In this document: piece by piece, positions 8,784 to 15,723 of the stretch
Numbering within the stretch: position 1 is the stretch's first letter
Layout: every line of letters starts with the position of its first letter
Assembly: GCF_025252405.1 (NCBI RefSeq)
Contig: NZ_CP104307.1
Location: forward strand, 2,790,001 to 2,854,000
Length of the DNA: 64,000 nt
Direction: 5' to 3'
Source of the DNA: Flavobacterium sp. TR2
Lineage (GTDB): Bacteria > Bacteroidota > Bacteroidia > Flavobacteriales > Flavobacteriaceae
Position numbers and translations under genes: made by a program
Notes under the pieces: model-generated
What the model saw: only the letters and a program-made list of their open reading frames with translations
What the model was told of the DNA's origin: nothing
Databases searched by the model: none

Positions 8784-9887
8784 GTGTCAGACGTCCTTCG
8801 AAATAAAGTTATTTTTCAACAGGTTGCCGAGTTATTGCAAAATGCCCGACAAGAGGTTTTGCGTACCGTAAATTCAACAATGACCATTACTTATTTTGAA
8901 ATAGGAAGAATTATAGTTGAAGAAGAACAAAATGGAAAAGATAGGGCTGAATATGGTAAACAGCTTTTAAAAGGGCTTTCTCAACAATTGACAAAGGAGT
9001 TTGGAAAAGGGTTTTCGATTAGAAATTTGGAACAAATAAGACAGTTCTATATGACTTTCTCAAAATCCGAGACACTGTCTCGGATTTTACAAATTCAAAA
9101 AGCGCAGACAGTGTCTGCGGAATTCAAATTTCAAAAAATGGAGTCAGTGTCTGCGAAATTTGATAAAGTAGATTATCAGACATTATCTTCGTTTTTTAAA
9201 TTGACATTTAGCCATTATGTCTTTTTAATGCGAATTGAAGATGAAAGAGAAAGACGGTTTTACAAAATTGAATCTGAAAAGAATAATTGGAGTGTTCGTG
9301 AACTAAAACGTCAGTATGATACAGCACTTTACACAAGACTAGCTTTAAGCCGAGATAAAGAAGGAATCTTAAAGCTTTCAGAACAAGGTCAGATTGTTGA
9401 GAAACCAAAAGATATTATTAAAGATCCTTATATTCTTGAGTTTTTGGGATTGCCTGAATTGCCTCAATATTCTGAATCGCAATTAGAAAAAGAAATTATA
9501 GGTAAATTAGAACATTTTCTATTAGAATTAGGACACGGTTTTACTTTTGTTGGTAGACAGGAAAGAATTACTTTTGATGATAAACATTTTAGGATTGATT
9601 TAGTTTTTTACAATAGGATATTAAAATGTTTTGTTCTTATAGATTTGAAAATTGGCGAATTAAAACATCAGGATTTAGGGCAAATGCAAATGTATGTGAA
9701 TTATTATGACAGAGAAATGCGATTGGAAGATGAAAATAAAACAATCGGAATTGTGCTTTGTCAGAATAAAAGTGAAGCTGTAGTAAAATATACGTTGCCA
9801 GAAAACAATGAACAAATTTTTGCCAGTAAGTATAAAACTGTTTTACCAAGTGTTGAAGCCTTAAAAGAACTGCTCGAAAACAAATAA
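8784..9887 (+). CDS. PDDEXK nuclease domain protein, YhcG/DUF1016 family
   Basis: The 367-residue protein has an N-terminal DUF1016_N domain (about residues 5-100, with EIGRIIVEEEQNG and GFSIRNLEQIRQFY). A C-terminal PDDEXK-type nuclease domain spans about residues 225-365, with RIDLVFYN and LIDLKIG carrying the catalytic Asp and D-x-K pattern. The family is often found with restriction-modification or other defence genes, but none is here. The start is GTG 8784. It sits between parE and parC with gaps of 20 and 22 bases, so it is co-transcribed with topoisomerase IV. The middle of the protein (residues 93-135) carries an unusual repeated stretch. Confidence 0.92.
   Translation: MSDVLRNKVIFQQVAELLQNARQEVLRTVNSTMTITYFEIGRIIVEEEQNGKDRAEYGKQLLKGLSQQLTKEFGKGFSIRNLEQIRQFYMTFSKSETLSRILQIQKAQTVSAEFKFQKMESVSAKFDKVDYQTLSSFFKLTFSHYVFLMRIEDERERRFYKIESEKNNWSVRELKRQYDTALYTRLALSRDKEGILKLSEQGQIVEKPKDIIKDPYILEFLGLPELPQYSESQLEKEIIGKLEHFLLELGHGFTFVGRQERITFDDKHFRIDLVFYNRILKCFVLIDLKIGELKHQDLGQMQMYVNYYDREMRLEDENKTIGIVLCQNKSEAVVKYTLPENNEQIFASKYKTVLPSVEALKELLENK
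9062..9155. repeat. Palindromic repeat cluster inside the yhcG-like coding region
   Basis: A perfect inverted repeat with 13-base arms and one central base lies at 9062-9088 (AAAATCCGAGACA and its complement). A second, with 8-base arms CGCAGACA/TGTCTGCG, lies at 9103-9119. The word CAGTGTCTGCG recurs at 9145-9155. All keep the frame open and encode repeated peptides of the type QTVSAEF and ESVSAKF between the two domains. Confidence 0.85.
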
Positions 9888-9909: not shown

Positions 9910-12624
9910 ATGAAAGACGAAGAAGACGATAACATAATTCCAAACGACGACGAGAATAATCAAGATGAAAATCTAGATAACATTCAAGATGGAGATGATG
10001 ATGTGATTGATGGTGAAGGAAAACATTTTGAAGGAGCACATTTCTACGAAAATCAGGAAGAAGAAGGTGAAGATGTTATTACGAAGGTAACAGGAATGTA
10101 CAAAGACTGGTTCTTGGATTATGCTTCGTACGTGATTTTGGAACGTGCGGTTCCTGCTATCGAGGACGGATTTAAGCCTGTTCAACGTCGTATTATGCAC
10201 TCTTTAAAAGAGCTGGATGATGGACGTTATAATAAAGTTGCCAATGTTGTTGGTCACACCATGCAGTATCACCCACACGGAGATGCGAGTATTGGTGATG
10301 CAATGGTGCAAATTGGCCAGAAAGATTTATTGATTGACTGCCAAGGTAACTGGGGAAATATTTTAACTGGTGATGGTGCAGCAGCACCCCGTTATATCGA
10401 GGCACGTTTATCTAAATTTGCTTTGGAGGTCTTATATTCTCCAAAAATTACAGAATGGGGATTATCGTATGACGGTAGAAAAGCCGAACCAATCAATCTT
10501 CCTGTAAAATTCCCATTGCTTTTAGCGCAAGGTGCAGAAGGTATTGCGGTTGGACTTTCTACAAAAGTTTTGCCTCATAACTTTAACGAATTAATCGATG
10601 CTTCGATTAAAATCTTAAAAGGAAAGCCGTTTACGCTTTATCCTGATTTTATGACGCAGGGTATTGCTGACGTTTCCAACTACAACGACGGAATGCGTGG
10701 CGGACGTGTGCGTGTGCGTGCTAAAATTTCGCAGTTAGACAAAAATACATTGGTGATTACCCAGATTCCGTTTTCGACCAATACATCGAGTTTAATTGAC
10801 AGTATTTTGAAAGCCAACGAAAAAGGCAAAATCAAAATCAAGAAAATTGAAGACAATACTGCTGCAGATGTTGAAATTTTAATTCATCTTTTCCCAGGCG
10901 TTTCACCAGACAAAACTATTGACGCTTTGTTTGCATTTACAGCCTGCGAAACTTCTGTCGCGCCTTTAGGATGTGTTATCGAAGATAATAAACCGTTGTT
11001 TATAGGGGTTTCACAAATGCTGAAAATCTCAACTCAAAGAACAGTAGATTTACTTCGTCAGGAACTAGAAATTCAATTAGAAGAATTAAAAAATAAGTGG
11101 CACTTTTCTACTTTGGAGAAAATATTCATTCGTGAAGAAATGTATATCGACTTCAAATTATACGGAGATAGAGAATCACTTTACAAATATTTATATGATC
11201 GTTTTGAGCCTTTCAAAAAATCATTCGTCAGAGAAATCAATGATGATGATTTACAGCGTTTGACTCAAATCCCGATGATTCGTATTACCCGTTTCGACTC
11301 TGATAAAGCCGATGAATTGATTTCGAGGTTAGAAGAAGAAATGAAAGAGGTCGAATACAATTTAGAACATCTTACCGATTTTGCTATTGCATATTTTACA
11401 AAATTAAAGGAGAAATACGGAAAAGGACGCGAACGCCAGACAGAACTGCGTGTTTTTGATAACGTTGAAGCTACAAAAGTAGTTTTAAGAAACACAAAAC
11501 TTTATGTAAATCGTGAAGAAGGTTTCGTAGGAACAAGTTTAAAGAAAGATGAATATGTAGGCGATTGTTCTGATATTGATGATGTTATCGTGTTTTTGCG
11601 AGACGGAACCATGATGATTACAAAAGTAGATGCGAAGACCTTTATCGGGAAAGACATCATTCACGCGGCTGTTTTTGATAAAAACGATAAACGTACCATT
11701 TATAACATGATGTACCGAGATGGAAAATCAGGACCATCTTATATAAAACGTTTTAATGTTACTGGTGTAACGCGTGATAAGGCTTACGATTTAACAAACG
11801 GAACAAATGGTTCTCAGGTGGTTTATTTTTCGCATAATCCAAATGGAGAAGCTGAGGTTGTAACTATTTTATTGCGTCAGGTTGGAACTATTAAGAAACT
11901 GAAATTCGATATTGATTTTGCTAAATTAGCTATTAAAGGACGAGGTTCTAAAGGAAACTTGGTGACCAAATATCCAATTAAGAAAATTGAATTGAAAGAA
12001 AAAGGAATTTCGACTTTACTGCCAAGAAAAGTTTGGTTTGACGATACTGTAAAACGTTTGAATGTTGATGCAAGAGGTGAGCTGTTAGGAGAATTTAAAC
12101 CTACAGATAAAATCTTAGTAATTAGTCAATCAGGGAAATTGAAAGTAATCATTCCAGAGTTGTCAACTCATTTTGATGAAGACATGATTGTTTTGGAGAA
12201 ATGGAAACCTAAAAAACCAATTTCTGCGATTTATTATGATGGTGAAAAAGAGCGTTACTTCTTGAAGCGTTTCCTTGTAGAAAATGAAGGAAAAGAAGAA
12301 AGTTTTATTACAGACCATCCAAATTCGCAGCTGGAAATCGTTTCGACAGATTACCGCCCGGTAGCGCAATTGGTTTTTGCAAAAGTAAAAGGAGTTCAAA
12401 AAGACGACTTGCATATTGATGTAGAAGACTTTATAGCTGTAAAAGGTTTTAAAGCTTTAGGAAATCAATTGACAACTGATAAATTAAGACAAGTCAATTT
12501 ATTAGATCCGCTTCCTTATGAAGAGCCCGTGGAAGAAGTTCCAGAAAAACCAGAAATCCCAGAAGATGATCCTGTGGAGACAGAATTAGACGATGATGGC
12601 CAAATAGGTTTGGTTTTAGAATAA
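9910..12624 (+). CDS. parC: DNA topoisomerase IV subunit A
   Basis: The 904-residue A subunit cuts and rejoins DNA. The catalytic tyrosine is Tyr162 in PRYIEARLS, and the GyrA/ParC breakage-reunion domain runs from about 75 to 500 (VILERAVPAIEDGFKPVQRRI, YHPHGDASIGDAMV). A beta-propeller-type C-terminal domain follows; I see no canonical GyrA box, which fits ParC. The first 55 residues are a very acidic leader rich in Asp, Glu and Asn. It completes the operon begun by parE and is followed by a clear terminator. Confidence 0.95.
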   Translation: MKDEEDDNIIPNDDENNQDENLDNIQDGDDDVIDGEGKHFEGAHFYENQEEEGEDVITKVTGMYKDWFLDYASYVILERAVPAIEDGFKPVQRRIMHSLKELDDGRYNKVANVVGHTMQYHPHGDASIGDAMVQIGQKDLLIDCQGNWGNILTGDGAAAPRYIEARLSKFALEVLYSPKITEWGLSYDGRKAEPINLPVKFPLLLAQGAEGIAVGLSTKVLPHNFNELIDASIKILKGKPFTLYPDFMTQGIADVSNYNDGMRGGRVRVRAKISQLDKNTLVITQIPFSTNTSSLIDSILKANEKGKIKIKKIEDNTAADVEILIHLFPGVSPDKTIDALFAFTACETSVAPLGCVIEDNKPLFIGVSQMLKISTQRTVDLLRQELEIQLEELKNKWHFSTLEKIFIREEMYIDFKLYGDRESLYKYLYDRFEPFKKSFVREINDDDLQRLTQIPMIRITRFDSDKADELISRLEEEMKEVEYNLEHLTDFAIAYFTKLKEKYGKGRERQTELRVFDNVEATKVVLRNTKLYVNREEGFVGTSLKKDEYVGDCSDIDDVIVFLRDGTMMITKVDAKTFIGKDIIHAAVFDKNDKRTIYNMMYRDGKSGPSYIKRFNVTGVTRDKAYDLTNGTNGSQVVYFSHNPNGEAEVVTILLRQVGTIKKLKFDIDFAKLAIKGRGSKGNLVTKYPIKKIELKEKGISTLLPRKVWFDDTVKRLNVDARGELLGEFKPTDKILVISQSGKLKVIIPELSTHFDEDMIVLEKWKPKKPISAIYYDGEKERYFLKRFLVENEGKEESFITDHPNSQLEIVSTDYRPVAQLVFAKVKGVQKDDLHIDVEDFIAVKGFKALGNQLTTDKLRQVNLLDPLPYEEPVEEVPEKPEIPEDDPVETELDDDGQIGLVLE

Positions 12625-12628
12625 AAAG

Positions 12629-12661
12629 AAAACGCTAAGATTAATTTCTTAGCGTTTTTTT
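12629..12661 (+). terminator. Terminator of the topoisomerase IV operon
   Basis: Arms AAAACGCTAAG (12629-12639) and CTTAGCGTTTT (12648-12658) enclose an 8-base loop and end in a T run. The flanking A run on the left also lets it act on the minus strand, for the fragment that ends at 12671. Confidence 0.88.
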
Positions 12662-12670
12662 ATGGCTCAG

Positions 12671-13337
12671 CTAATTTTCAATAGGAATAGTTTCCTCTTT
12701 AACCCATTTTACTTCATTGTTTTCAATACGAACAGAAATTGTATCGCCGTCTTTTATTTCACCAGAAATTATTTTTTTAGCAAGAGGCCTTCTTAAATGA
12801 GTGCGAATAATGGTTTTAATGGGCCTTGCGCCATATTTAGCATTATAGCCATTTTCTGCAAGATAGAGTTTGGCTTCCATTGGAATTTCTACTTTAACAT
12901 TGATATTCTTTAATAAATCCATGAATTCCTTTTTAAGATGAATCTCGAATATTTTTAAAGCATTTTCTTTGCTAATAGGCGCAAAAGGTATGATTTCAGT
13001 TAAACGCCCTAAAAATTCAGGACGGAAATAATTTGCCATAATTTCCATCAAAGAGCTTGAAGTTGGGATTTCATTATTATTGAATGTAGCAACAATATGA
13101 TCTGCGCCGATATTTGACGTAAAAAGAATAATGGCATTAGAGAAGTCGCCTTCTTTGCCTAAACGATCGTGCAGTTTTCCTTCATCCATAATCTGCAGAA
13201 AAACATCAAAGACAGAAGGATGCGCTTTTTCGATTTCATCAAATAAAACAATAGAGTAGGGTTTTTGTCTAATCTTGTTTACCAGCAAGCCCCCCTCTTC
13301 ATACCCCACATAGCCAGGAGGCGCACCATTGAGCAGC
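12671..13337 (-). pseudogene. C-terminal remnant of a ClpB/TssH (ClpV)-type AAA+ ATPase
   Basis: About 222 codons remain, beginning abruptly inside the second AAA+ module just before GAPPGYVGYEEGG. They include the Walker B stretch VLFDEIEKAH, sensor-1 LFTSNIGAD, the arginine-finger region FRPEFLGRLTEII and the D2-small domain GARPIKTIIRT. Everything upstream (N-domain, D1 and D2 Walker A, some 600 residues in the family) is absent, so the product cannot be an active unfoldase. The frame opens at a TTG that is unlikely to be a real start. The neighbour points to TssH (ClpV) of a type VI secretion locus; a housekeeping ClpB copy is the alternative. Confidence 0.82.
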
Positions 13338-13879
13338 AAGCCAAGGAAAGCAGCTTTTCTAAAAATAATGATCCTTACCTGATGATTAAACCCAAAGTGG
13401 GAGAATTAAAAGGGAAAAAGTTTACAATAAATTATTGGTCAACGTGCACTGAAAACGGAAATGATATAAAAGCAGGAACAGTTTTAGAATGTAAAGATTC
13501 GTTTTTTATAAGTAAGAGCGCGACACTTATGACAAATACTGTTGGAGGACTAAATAGGCAAAACAATAAAGACAGAATCCTAGCCTACAGAAATGCCTTG
13601 CTGACACGCGGGAGAATTGTAACTTTTGCCGATATTAAAGCTTTTGGATTTAATCATTTTAAAAGTTCGATTGAAGATATCAGAATCGAAAAAGGCACGC
13701 GAAAAGAAATCTCTGTCAAAGCAGGTTTTAGCAGAACGGTTGATATATACATCAAGACAAATCCTGATGAAAAGCAGCATTTGTCAGATTCGGAGTGGAA
13801 TTATTTGTGCGATAGCTTTGCAAAAAACTTAAAAAATAGATCTTCAAATGTGTTTCCGTATCGCGTATTTGTGGATTAA
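13338..13879 (+). pseudogene. C-terminal remnant of a probable type VI secretion baseplate protein (TssF-like)
   Basis: About 180 codons remain, from ESSFSKNNDPYLMIKPKVG to the stop. The stretch RNALLTRGRIVTFADIKAF and the ending FPYRVFVD look like the C-terminal part of TssF-like baseplate proteins of Bacteroidota type VI systems; this is from memory and less certain than the ATPase call. The frame continues upstream to 13265 only as antisense of the AAA+ fragment, so no genuine start exists. It points away from the ATPase fragment, and both lost their 5' ends at the same spot near 13330-13345. Confidence 0.62.
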
Positions 13880-13884
13880 AATCT

Positions 13885-13913
13885 AAAACGCCGAAAAGTT
13901 TTTTCGGCGTTTT
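13885..13913. terminator. Bidirectional terminator between the TssF-like fragment and the cytochrome peroxidase gene
   Basis: Perfect 13-bp arms AAAACGCCGAAAA (13885-13897) and TTTTCGGCGTTTT (13901-13913) enclose a 3-base loop. The A/T-rich ends serve both strands. It lies 6 bases past the plus-strand stop and 26 bases past the minus-strand stop. Confidence 0.87.
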
Positions 13914-13938
13914 GGTTTAATTGAGATTTATTTTGGTT

Positions 13939-15723
13939 TTACTGGTATTTTTTATCCGTAAGCGCTTTCATAAAGGCAACAATCGCTTTTTCTTCTTTTA
14001 CTGTTAAATTGAGTTTATCAAAAGGAAGCGTCTGATTTTCTACTTGGTAACCTAAACCAATTCCGCCGCCTTTATTGTAAAAAGAAACGACTTCTTCCAG
14101 TGTTCTGAAAACTCCATTATGCATATACGGAGCTGTGACAGCTGCATTTCTTACCGTTGGCGTTTTAAAAGCACCAACCAATTGAGGCATCTGATTGTAT
14201 ATGTAACGTCCTTTATCTGAGCTTAAAGATTTTCCAGAAGGCTCATTTGGAGTTCCTATAACTTCATGCTCAGTTTTAGAATAACTTGGAGGAACTGTTC
14301 CGTTAAACAAGGGAGTAAAATGGCAGGTGGCACATTTTGCTTTTCCCATAAACAGATTCATTCCTTCAATTTCCTCTTGGGTTAGAGCATTTTTATTTCC
14401 TCTCATATATTCATCAAATCTCGAGTCAAAAGCATTTAAGGAACGTACATAACTCGCAATAGCATTTTGAATCTGCCAAGCTTCTGGTTTGGTGGTTTTT
14501 GGATAAGCTTTTTTGAACAGCTTTACATATTCTTTATCCAATTGGATTTTAGCATGAATATTTTCCATAGAACCATGCATTTCATCTTTATTCTGGATCA
14601 CATCGACGCTTTGTTTTTCCAAATCCAGCTGACGCATATCCCAAAACTGTGCATTTTGCAGCGAAGCATAAGTTAGAGTAGGAGTGTTTCTTGGCAAATT
14701 TATTCCAGTTAATGAAATATTAGTTTTCATTCCATCTGTAAAAGCTTTTTCAGGATTATGACAAGTTGCACAGCTTCGGTCATTGTTTTTAGAAAGGCTT
14801 TTGTCATAAAACAATTTCTCTCCTAAAATGGCTTTTTCTTTAGTGAAATTATATTCTTTAGAAAGTACAAAAGCATTTACATCAAAAGCATCTTTGTCAA
14901 ATAAAGTTTCAATTGTTGGTTTTAGCGGACTGCTTTTCTTTACATTTTTAATGTTTTCTTCTTGCTGAAAAGCTTTCAGTTTTTTCGAAATAGGATTTAG
15001 ATATTCTGTTATAAAAATAGCGCGATTGAAAGCATTGAAATTATTATTTTCAGTGCAATATTTTTGTGCGTTTCTCGTCAATTGTTTTAATTGAGACACT
15101 GATTTATTTTGTGGATTAATCTTTTCAAGCGTTTCTGGAATTGAAGTTAAACTTTCTCCAGCTTCTGGAATTGAAGATTGTAAAATTGGACTGTCAAACC
15201 CTGTGATTCCTAAAGCAATAACTCTAAAGACATTCTGCTGAATGGCATCCAGAACGTAATCATCACTAATCGTAATAACCTCAAAAGTGCTTTTTAACTG
15301 TTTGATATTAGATTGAAAAATATTCAATTCCCTTATTAAATCCTCTTTACTCTCAGAAGTATATTCAGGATAAATCATTTCTTCCATCACCTGAAAGCCA
15401 TGAGGCTCAAAAGATCTGTTTTCTTCCAATTCCATTTCGTCCAAAGCAGGGCCATTCATAAATCTGGCTGTTTCTGGAATAAAATATTCAATCGCCCATT
15501 CGACCTTTTTGTAAGCTAAGCGAGATTTTTTGAATTGTGATATAATTTCTTTTTGTGCTGAATTTTGGCTGACCAATTGCTGAAATTGGGCAATTTCATT
15601 ATTTAGTTTAGTCAAATCTATAAGTAGCTCTTGTTTGACAGTTGCTTTTGAAACTTCATTTTTTTGGCATGAAAAGGAAAAACAAAGCAGTAAGAACAGG
15701 AAAGTAAAATGTTTTAATTTCAT
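13939..15723 (-). CDS. Di-heme cytochrome c peroxidase (CCP/MauG family) lipoprotein with a helical N-terminal extension
   Basis: The 594-residue protein has a lipoprotein signal peptide ending at Cys19 (FSFSC). Residues 30-270 form a mostly helical domain (ARFMNGPALDEMELEEN region) that recalls imelysin-like folds, though I am not sure. The C-terminal half is a di-heme CCP/MauG domain with heme-binding CxxCH motifs at Cys318-His322 (CATCHNPEKAF) and Cys464-His468 (CATCHFTPLF). Such proteins reduce peroxide or oxidise a protein partner in the periplasm. At 594 residues it is far longer than a standard CCP (about 330-350). It lies 69 bases downstream of the PhoX-like gene, so the two are probably co-transcribed. 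Confidence 0.92.
   Translation of the reverse strand: MKLKHFTFLFLLLCFSFSCQKNEVSKATVKQELLIDLTKLNNEIAQFQQLVSQNSAQKEIISQFKKSRLAYKKVEWAIEYFIPETARFMNGPALDEMELEENRSFEPHGFQVMEEMIYPEYTSESKEDLIRELNIFQSNIKQLKSTFEVITISDDYVLDAIQQNVFRVIALGITGFDSPILQSSIPEAGESLTSIPETLEKINPQNKSVSQLKQLTRNAQKYCTENNNFNAFNRAIFITEYLNPISKKLKAFQQEENIKNVKKSSPLKPTIETLFDKDAFDVNAFVLSKEYNFTKEKAILGEKLFYDKSLSKNNDRSCATCHNPEKAFTDGMKTNISLTGINLPRNTPTLTYASLQNAQFWDMRQLDLEKQSVDVIQNKDEMHGSMENIHAKIQLDKEYVKLFKKAYPKTTKPEAWQIQNAIASYVRSLNAFDSRFDEYMRGNKNALTQEEIEGMNLFMGKAKCATCHFTPLFNGTVPPSYSKTEHEVIGTPNEPSGKSLSSDKGRYIYNQMPQLVGAFKTPTVRNAAVTAPYMHNGVFRTLEEVVSFYNKGGGIGLGYQVENQTLPFDKLNLTVKEEKAIVAFMKALTDKKYQ

Follow-up and report, generated by a model that had tools for sequence, protein, structure and literature searches.

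The window, a stretch of 64,000 nucleotides from Flavobacterium sp. TR2 (contig NZ_CP104307.1, positions 2,790,001 to 2,854,000), contains a locus at which two truncated reading frames lie back to back, both pointing outward. Its main features are as follows, with residues numbered after the full-length proteins of a related genome, G062.

9910..12624, plus strand: presumably parC (topoisomerase IV subunit A), named after a preliminary description of this DNA; flanks intact and deleted loci alike on the left
12629..12658, no strand: terminator-like hairpin from a hairpin scan, between parC and the clpV remnant (found on the minus strand)
12671..13327, minus strand: tssH/clpV remnant, the last 218 codons and the stop, starting at the GAPPGYVG codon (residue 603)
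13325..13333, no strand: deletion junction, with clpV codon 603 (13325-13327), ATT (13328-13330) and tssF codon 429, GAG (13331-13333)
13331..13879, plus strand: tssF remnant, the last 182 codons and the stop (residues 429-611)
13883..13915, no strand: bidirectional terminator-like hairpin from the same scan, between the tssF remnant and the peroxidase gene
13939..15723, minus strand: cytochrome-c-peroxidase-type gene, named after the preliminary description; right flank of intact and deleted loci

The codons of the clpV remnant run from 13327 down to 12674, with the stop at 12671-12673, and those of the tssF remnant from 13331 to 13876, with the stop at 13877-13879. The spacer between the two coding pieces is three bases long (13328-13330), of which AT is probably derived from clpV and T from tssF. 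The open reading frame list gives a minus frame of 12671-13339 and a plus frame of 13265-13879; the TTG starts at 13339 and 13265 are mechanical, and both sit across the junction. The preliminary description had noted two outward gene ends of about 220 and 180 codons, which the counts of 218 and 182 confirm, and had placed the junction at 13330-13345, at most two bases off the real one at 13328-13330. Its outer terminators (12629-12661 and 13885-13913) were recovered as the two hairpins listed; the scan for hairpins with T-runs found three sites on both strands, with 0.9 expected in shuffles. A gene for a YhcG/DUF1016 PDDEXK nuclease is located at 8784-9887, between the two topoisomerase IV genes.

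The intact cluster in related genomes

In G062, a T6SSiii cluster of about 30 kb lies between the same parC and peroxidase genes, whose products are 98% and 89% identical to those of the window, respectively. The outward ends of the cluster are ClpV on the minus strand and TssF on the plus strand. The minus strand encodes an 820-aa Clp ATPase adjoining a PKD-domain protein that is like TssP, and the plus-strand run encodes TssG, TssN, a DUF4280 protein (presumably PAAR-like), two TssD, VgrG and, lastly, the 612-aa TssF. A 456-aa gene with no NCBIfam match presumably encodes TssC, judging by its position. Family models match TssN (PF17555, 265.8 bits; cut-off 30.3), Hcp/TssD (PF17642, 167.2 and 148.9 bits), VgrG (PF04717, 79.9 bits; PF05954, 59.7 bits), TssG (PF06996, 34.5 bits; cut-off 24.6) and TssF (PF05947, 28.0 bits; cut-off 25), the latter at residues 26-318 only. 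TssK shows weak similarity below the curated cut-offs (20 of 100 and 11.8 of 23.4 bits). TssH/ClpV also scores below its cut-off (508.7 of 884.95 bits), with a higher value for the ClpB model (579.9 of 1232.1 bits); the T6SS identity of the ATPase rests on its position in the cluster.

The two fragments of the window correspond to the ends of this cluster, with protein identities of 85% for clpV and 78% for tssF. The minus fragment also matches AAA_2 at 126.5 bits and ClpB_D2-small at 67.4 bits, and these matches together with the identities exclude a chance origin of the fragments. The minus piece, earlier read as the second half of a ClpB/TssH module, is the C-terminal part of the T6SS ATPase; a TssH/ClpV model does not single it out, ClpB scoring higher even for the full-length protein. 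The plus piece, earlier read as the C-terminus of TssF, matches the last gene of the intact cluster. No family model matches it above cut-off, the weak hits being Rad52 (14 bits of 20.3) and another at E 0.22. The preliminary description had held the lack of a TssF-model match to speak against its assignment, yet the full-length G062 orthologue matches PF05947, and the model is blind to the window fragment because it covers residues 26-318, while the fragment keeps 429-611. With an intact cluster of the expected orientation found in relatives between parC and the peroxidase gene, the fragments are indeed the outward-reading ends of a lost T6SS cluster, and the scar proposed in the preliminary description is supported as real and correctly read.

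The window genome (5.1 Mb, two contigs, 99.97% complete) has no TssF-model match, no second tssF piece and no TssC match, so the cluster is gone rather than moved. The comparison with intact relatives shows the window locus to be the scar of one deletion, which took out about 30 kb between a point within tssH/clpV and one within tssF, and the T6SSiii apparatus with it.

Relatives of the tssF fragment occur in 26 of 101 genomes of the genus, many in frames of about 610-630 codons. One genome (G056; loci L027, L028 and L158) has three full-length TssF genes, two of them on small contigs and with 64% identity to the G062 TssF. The T6SS cluster is apparently located at different places in the chromosome: several genomes have intact clusters with no parC within the stretch fetched (L135, L136, L140, L141, L146 and L100), and the same holds for the scar of G374.

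Recurrent scars and their end points

Beyond the single locus covered by the preliminary description, loss at fixed end points recurs throughout the genus. We counted at least 52 scar loci in relatives, 35 in a sample of 398 genomes of the genus (one per species) and 17 new ones among the best 80 of 471 loci in named genomes; these 17 are all from named Flavobacterium, except L177 (Flavobacteriaceae). In the 398-genome sample the full TssF query matched 102 genomes and the ClpV C-terminus query 98 at E 1e-60 or better; a scar is present in 35 genomes, and a full-length TssC with at least 90% identity to that of G062 in 31. A TssC match is absent from 32 of the 35 scar genomes, and is truncated within the scar in G178, belongs to another T6SS lineage in G313 and is a fragment elsewhere in G344. 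This last piece (L244, G344:C17:110500-115173) comes from a more distant T6SS; it is an isolated C-terminal TssC fragment at a different locus and also begins at a Gly codon. Among the matches to the ClpV C-terminus, codon-603 scars are absent from the more divergent T6SS lineages of the genus, where ClpV frames have 811-856 codons except in G148, G300 and G295 (of these, the G295 junction was read). Left out of the 52 loci are G342, whose TssF match is marginal, the rearranged G149, and G295, which has a clpV piece only. The G149 locus (L105) has a short decayed tssF piece beside an intact clpV and a second truncated tssF further along. Scars are scattered among intact relatives, and they are not purely an artefact of culture, since one was found in a metagenome-assembled genome (G390, locus L226).

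The left end lies at clpV codon 603 (GAPPG) in 35 of the 52 scars (34 junction strings and L225; L177, placed by coordinates only, agrees) and at codon 500 in G006, G008, G229, L168 and G178. Single cases lie near codons 797, 770, 680, 275, 197 and 31, and five scars (G059, G303, G311, G313 and G322) have a left partner other than clpV, that of G059 being uncertain, as are both end points of G322. The right end lies at tssF codon 584 in 20 of the 52, 24 in six, 390 in six, 420 in five, 346 in four, 429 in two (the window and L205, F. ustbae) and 424 in two, with single cases at 378, 51, 339 and about 183. Outside tssF, it falls once each in TssD (G393), TssC (G178) and a transposase gene (L173). 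In L173 (F. phragmitis), clpV codon 603 is joined to the C-terminal part of this gene, which is presumably IS200-like, judging by its motif. In L122 (G313) a double scar was observed, in which tssF starts from codon 390 and then jumps to 584, and a terminator-like stretch replaces clpV on the left.

The two sides pair freely, codon 603 with nine right partners and codon 584 with at least five left partners. In codon-603 junctions, the gap that separates clpV codon 603 from the next codon kept is two (18 scars) or three bases long, in L173 maybe four. The junction strings vary within types: 14 distinct strings occur among the 15 C603/T584 scars, and the two or three junction bases themselves differ. 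Prediction of the spacer bases from the nearest intact relatives, as a check on their descent from the parent genes, succeeded for 17 of 32 and 12 of 32, a weak test because third codon positions are saturated. The junction strings read are direct joins with no insertion sequence, except for the transposase-like fragment of L173, and no run shared by both ends, as expected for a site-specific recombination element, was found. The same junctions recur in the scars of G374 and L206, for which no parC lies in the stretch fetched; the chromosomal site is therefore an unlikely cause.

Among 23 distinct end points, a list compiled by eye from which G322 and G295 were excluded, 17 are located one or two bases before a GRN codon (Gly/Glu/Asp), compared with 20.7% of the codons in ClpV, TssF and TssC (binomial 6.5e-8; only the codon frequency and the binomial were computed). 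Four of the eight distinct clpV end points are not at such codons. The rule is not absolute, because tssF codon 420 is CAA instead of GAA in G229 and L199. A motif search around the end points, in which several residue numbers were entered off by one to four codons (corrected from the sequence in the end-point list), gave no convincing extended motif, and no enzyme or guide was found.

Independence, age and origin of the deletions

The parC tree comprises 65 loci (20 intact and 45 scars), with 17 of its 62 inner branches open. With midpoint rooting it contains 23 scar-only clades. For each scar type, the fewest changes equal the number of carriers (C603/T584, 15/15; C603/T24, 5/5; C603/T390, 4/4; C603/T346, 4/4; C500/T420, 4/4; C603/T429, 2/2), that is, a shared type saves no changes, although a single shared origin in G266 and G304 is possible at equal cost. 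If reversion of loss is allowed, 14 intact/scar changes suffice. Well-supported sister pairs of a scar and an intact locus are G264/G078 and G206/G108. The trees point to independent deletions, with separate losses of this machine apparently in dozens of related species.

Each scar type could instead have a single ancient origin and have passed from species to species by transformation, donor DNA with the scar recombining in the clpV and tssF arms and replacing the intact cluster. Such a spread would account for identical end points with no cutting enzyme, and recombination is likely common here, given that clpV and tssF distances track parC weakly in intact and scarred genomes alike; in G201, for instance, the clpV side is like that of its sisters and the tssF side is not. 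However, same-type scars are no closer beside the junction than scars of different types. The mean distance over ClpV 604-660 is 0.167 within types (134 pairs) vs 0.169 between them (686 pairs), and for the first 30 tssF codons the respective values are 0.153 vs 0.160 (T24), 0.228 vs 0.215 (T390), 0.270 vs 0.266 (T346) and 0.207 vs 0.196 (T420); ClpV 661-810, further from the junction, is slightly closer within types (0.175 vs 0.184). Moreover, the nearest neighbours near the junction are in most cases intact relatives or scars that belong to a different type, and incongruence with parC is no greater for scars than for intact loci (smallest p 0.096). The differing junction bases within types also speak against a single origin. 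We therefore consider such a spread unlikely.

The fragments are well preserved. Stops occur in one of 44 scar clpV pieces (residues 604-810; L206) and in none of 32 tssF pieces (431-582), and the tssF piece of G357 is frameshifted. The tssF pieces of G047, G053, G303, G396 and G311 have one stop each, which, judging by the frame lengths, probably lies at the junction edge. To the nearest intact relative, dN/dS is 0.051 in scars vs 0.037 in intact genes for ClpV and 0.104 vs 0.082 for TssF (some rows of the stop and dN/dS comparison include G149, outside the 52). The Walker B stretch differs at 14/1540 residues in scars vs 11/1330 in intact genes, ClpV 604-625 at 43/968 vs 15/836, and ClpV 721-810 at 350/3960 vs 185/3420; the higher ClpV divergence may stem from partners that are more distant or from some scars being older. 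With a median parC end branch of 0.073, fragments as old as the species should show more broken frames. The trees and the preservation of the fragments suggest that most deletions are young, and because scars are common but little decayed, deleted lineages seem to be either short-lived or easily arising.

The low dN/dS and the Walker B region, whose conservation matches that of intact genes, would also fit two functional genes under selection, with break points marking where viable fragments begin. This explanation is very improbable: the retained TssF length ranges from 28 to about 588 residues, no conserved start codon was seen by eye in the junction strings, the ClpV piece is without the Walker A part, the G357 and L206 pieces are disrupted as noted above, and sharing a type saves no tree changes.

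Ordinary illegitimate deletion at short repeats is equally hard to credit. The clpV side of G062 has GTAGA in common with the codon-429 site and AGAGT in common with the codon-584 site. Yet across 31 intact genomes, the runs matched between ten tssF sites and the clpV-603 flank averaged 0.2-1.7 bases (two registers), a result equalled or bettered by 47-93% of tssF codons on average. The short repeats envisaged at the junction in the preliminary description were not borne out, the microhomology between the ends being no better than for other tssF codons.

The positions are thus shown to be fixed, both sides to be reused independently, and homology not to be required. We propose that a putative DNA-cutting activity would break clpV at codon 603 or 500 and tssF at codon 24, 346, 390, 420, 429 or 584, as a rule one or two bases ahead of a Gly/Glu/Asp codon. 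The two outer ends would then be joined directly, probably with no need for homology. Topoisomerase cleavage, CRISPR, and homing and restriction enzymes were also considered as possible causes. To the reading as a whole, that is, a one-deletion scar in the window, many independent and mostly recent losses at fixed positions with independent sides, and breaks by a candidate agent followed by direct joining, we assign a probability of about 0.75. More tentatively, a dedicated break-and-join process, aware of sequence and coding frame, might remove the T6SS at high frequency, with weaponless cells continually made and purged in a one-way, deletion-based phase variation; we regard this extension as possible but doubtful.

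Several other candidates were rejected. Reverse-transcribed copies found no support in the window genome, which has no RVT_1 match. The YhcG/DUF1016 nuclease gene beside parC is present at 14 of the 40 scar loci and 9 of the 19 intact ones and shows no link to scars (59 loci with more than 600 bases upstream of parC, 23 positive; some of these stretches are too short for the whole gene). No viral carrier of tssF pieces was found in viral contigs; a degenerate junction pattern hit 40 viral loci, which are pattern matches only.

Comparison with known systems

When secretion systems are lost, the process is usually seen as one of rare and random decay. A lone scar of the kind found in the window would be ordinary, but not one that recurs at fixed end points in many species. 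With 35 genomes that have lost a 30-kb weapon by nearly the same deletion, at positions that recur from species to species, and 31 others that keep the T6SS, one can test directly how fast and by what mechanism the T6SS is lost; the pattern also points to a source of targeted bacterial deletions that has gone unrecognised. In the literature searched, mainly titles and abstract openings with subscription papers outside its scope, we found no description of recurrent fixed end points of T6SS deletion.

The T6SSiii of Bacteroidota has a membrane complex TssNQOPR and a patchy presence in Flavobacterium, according to excerpts of PMC10781749. The intact relative locus agrees with this system in having TssN, TssG, TssF, TssD, VgrG and a TssP-like PKD-domain protein, whereas the window keeps only the tssH and tssF ends. 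The intact GA3 T6SS locus of Bacteroides fragilis is likewise not present in all strains, a patchy loss among close relatives similar to that seen here, but fixed end points are not mentioned in these excerpts (PMC10781749).

Bacterial non-homologous end joining with Ku resembles the proposed process in joining ends directly without homology, and Ku is encoded in the window genome. Ku as a requirement was, however, rejected: it has a match in 23 of the 35 scar genomes and 16 of the 31 intact ones, and seven of the 12 scar genomes with no Ku match have typical junctions. Excision of the nifD element in cyanobacteria is a programmed DNA rearrangement, and it is similar to the T6SS losses in that a defined segment is lost with repeated end points. 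In contrast to that element, the T6SS scars have no core repeat common to both ends and no identified recombinase, and they use several alternative end points on each side.
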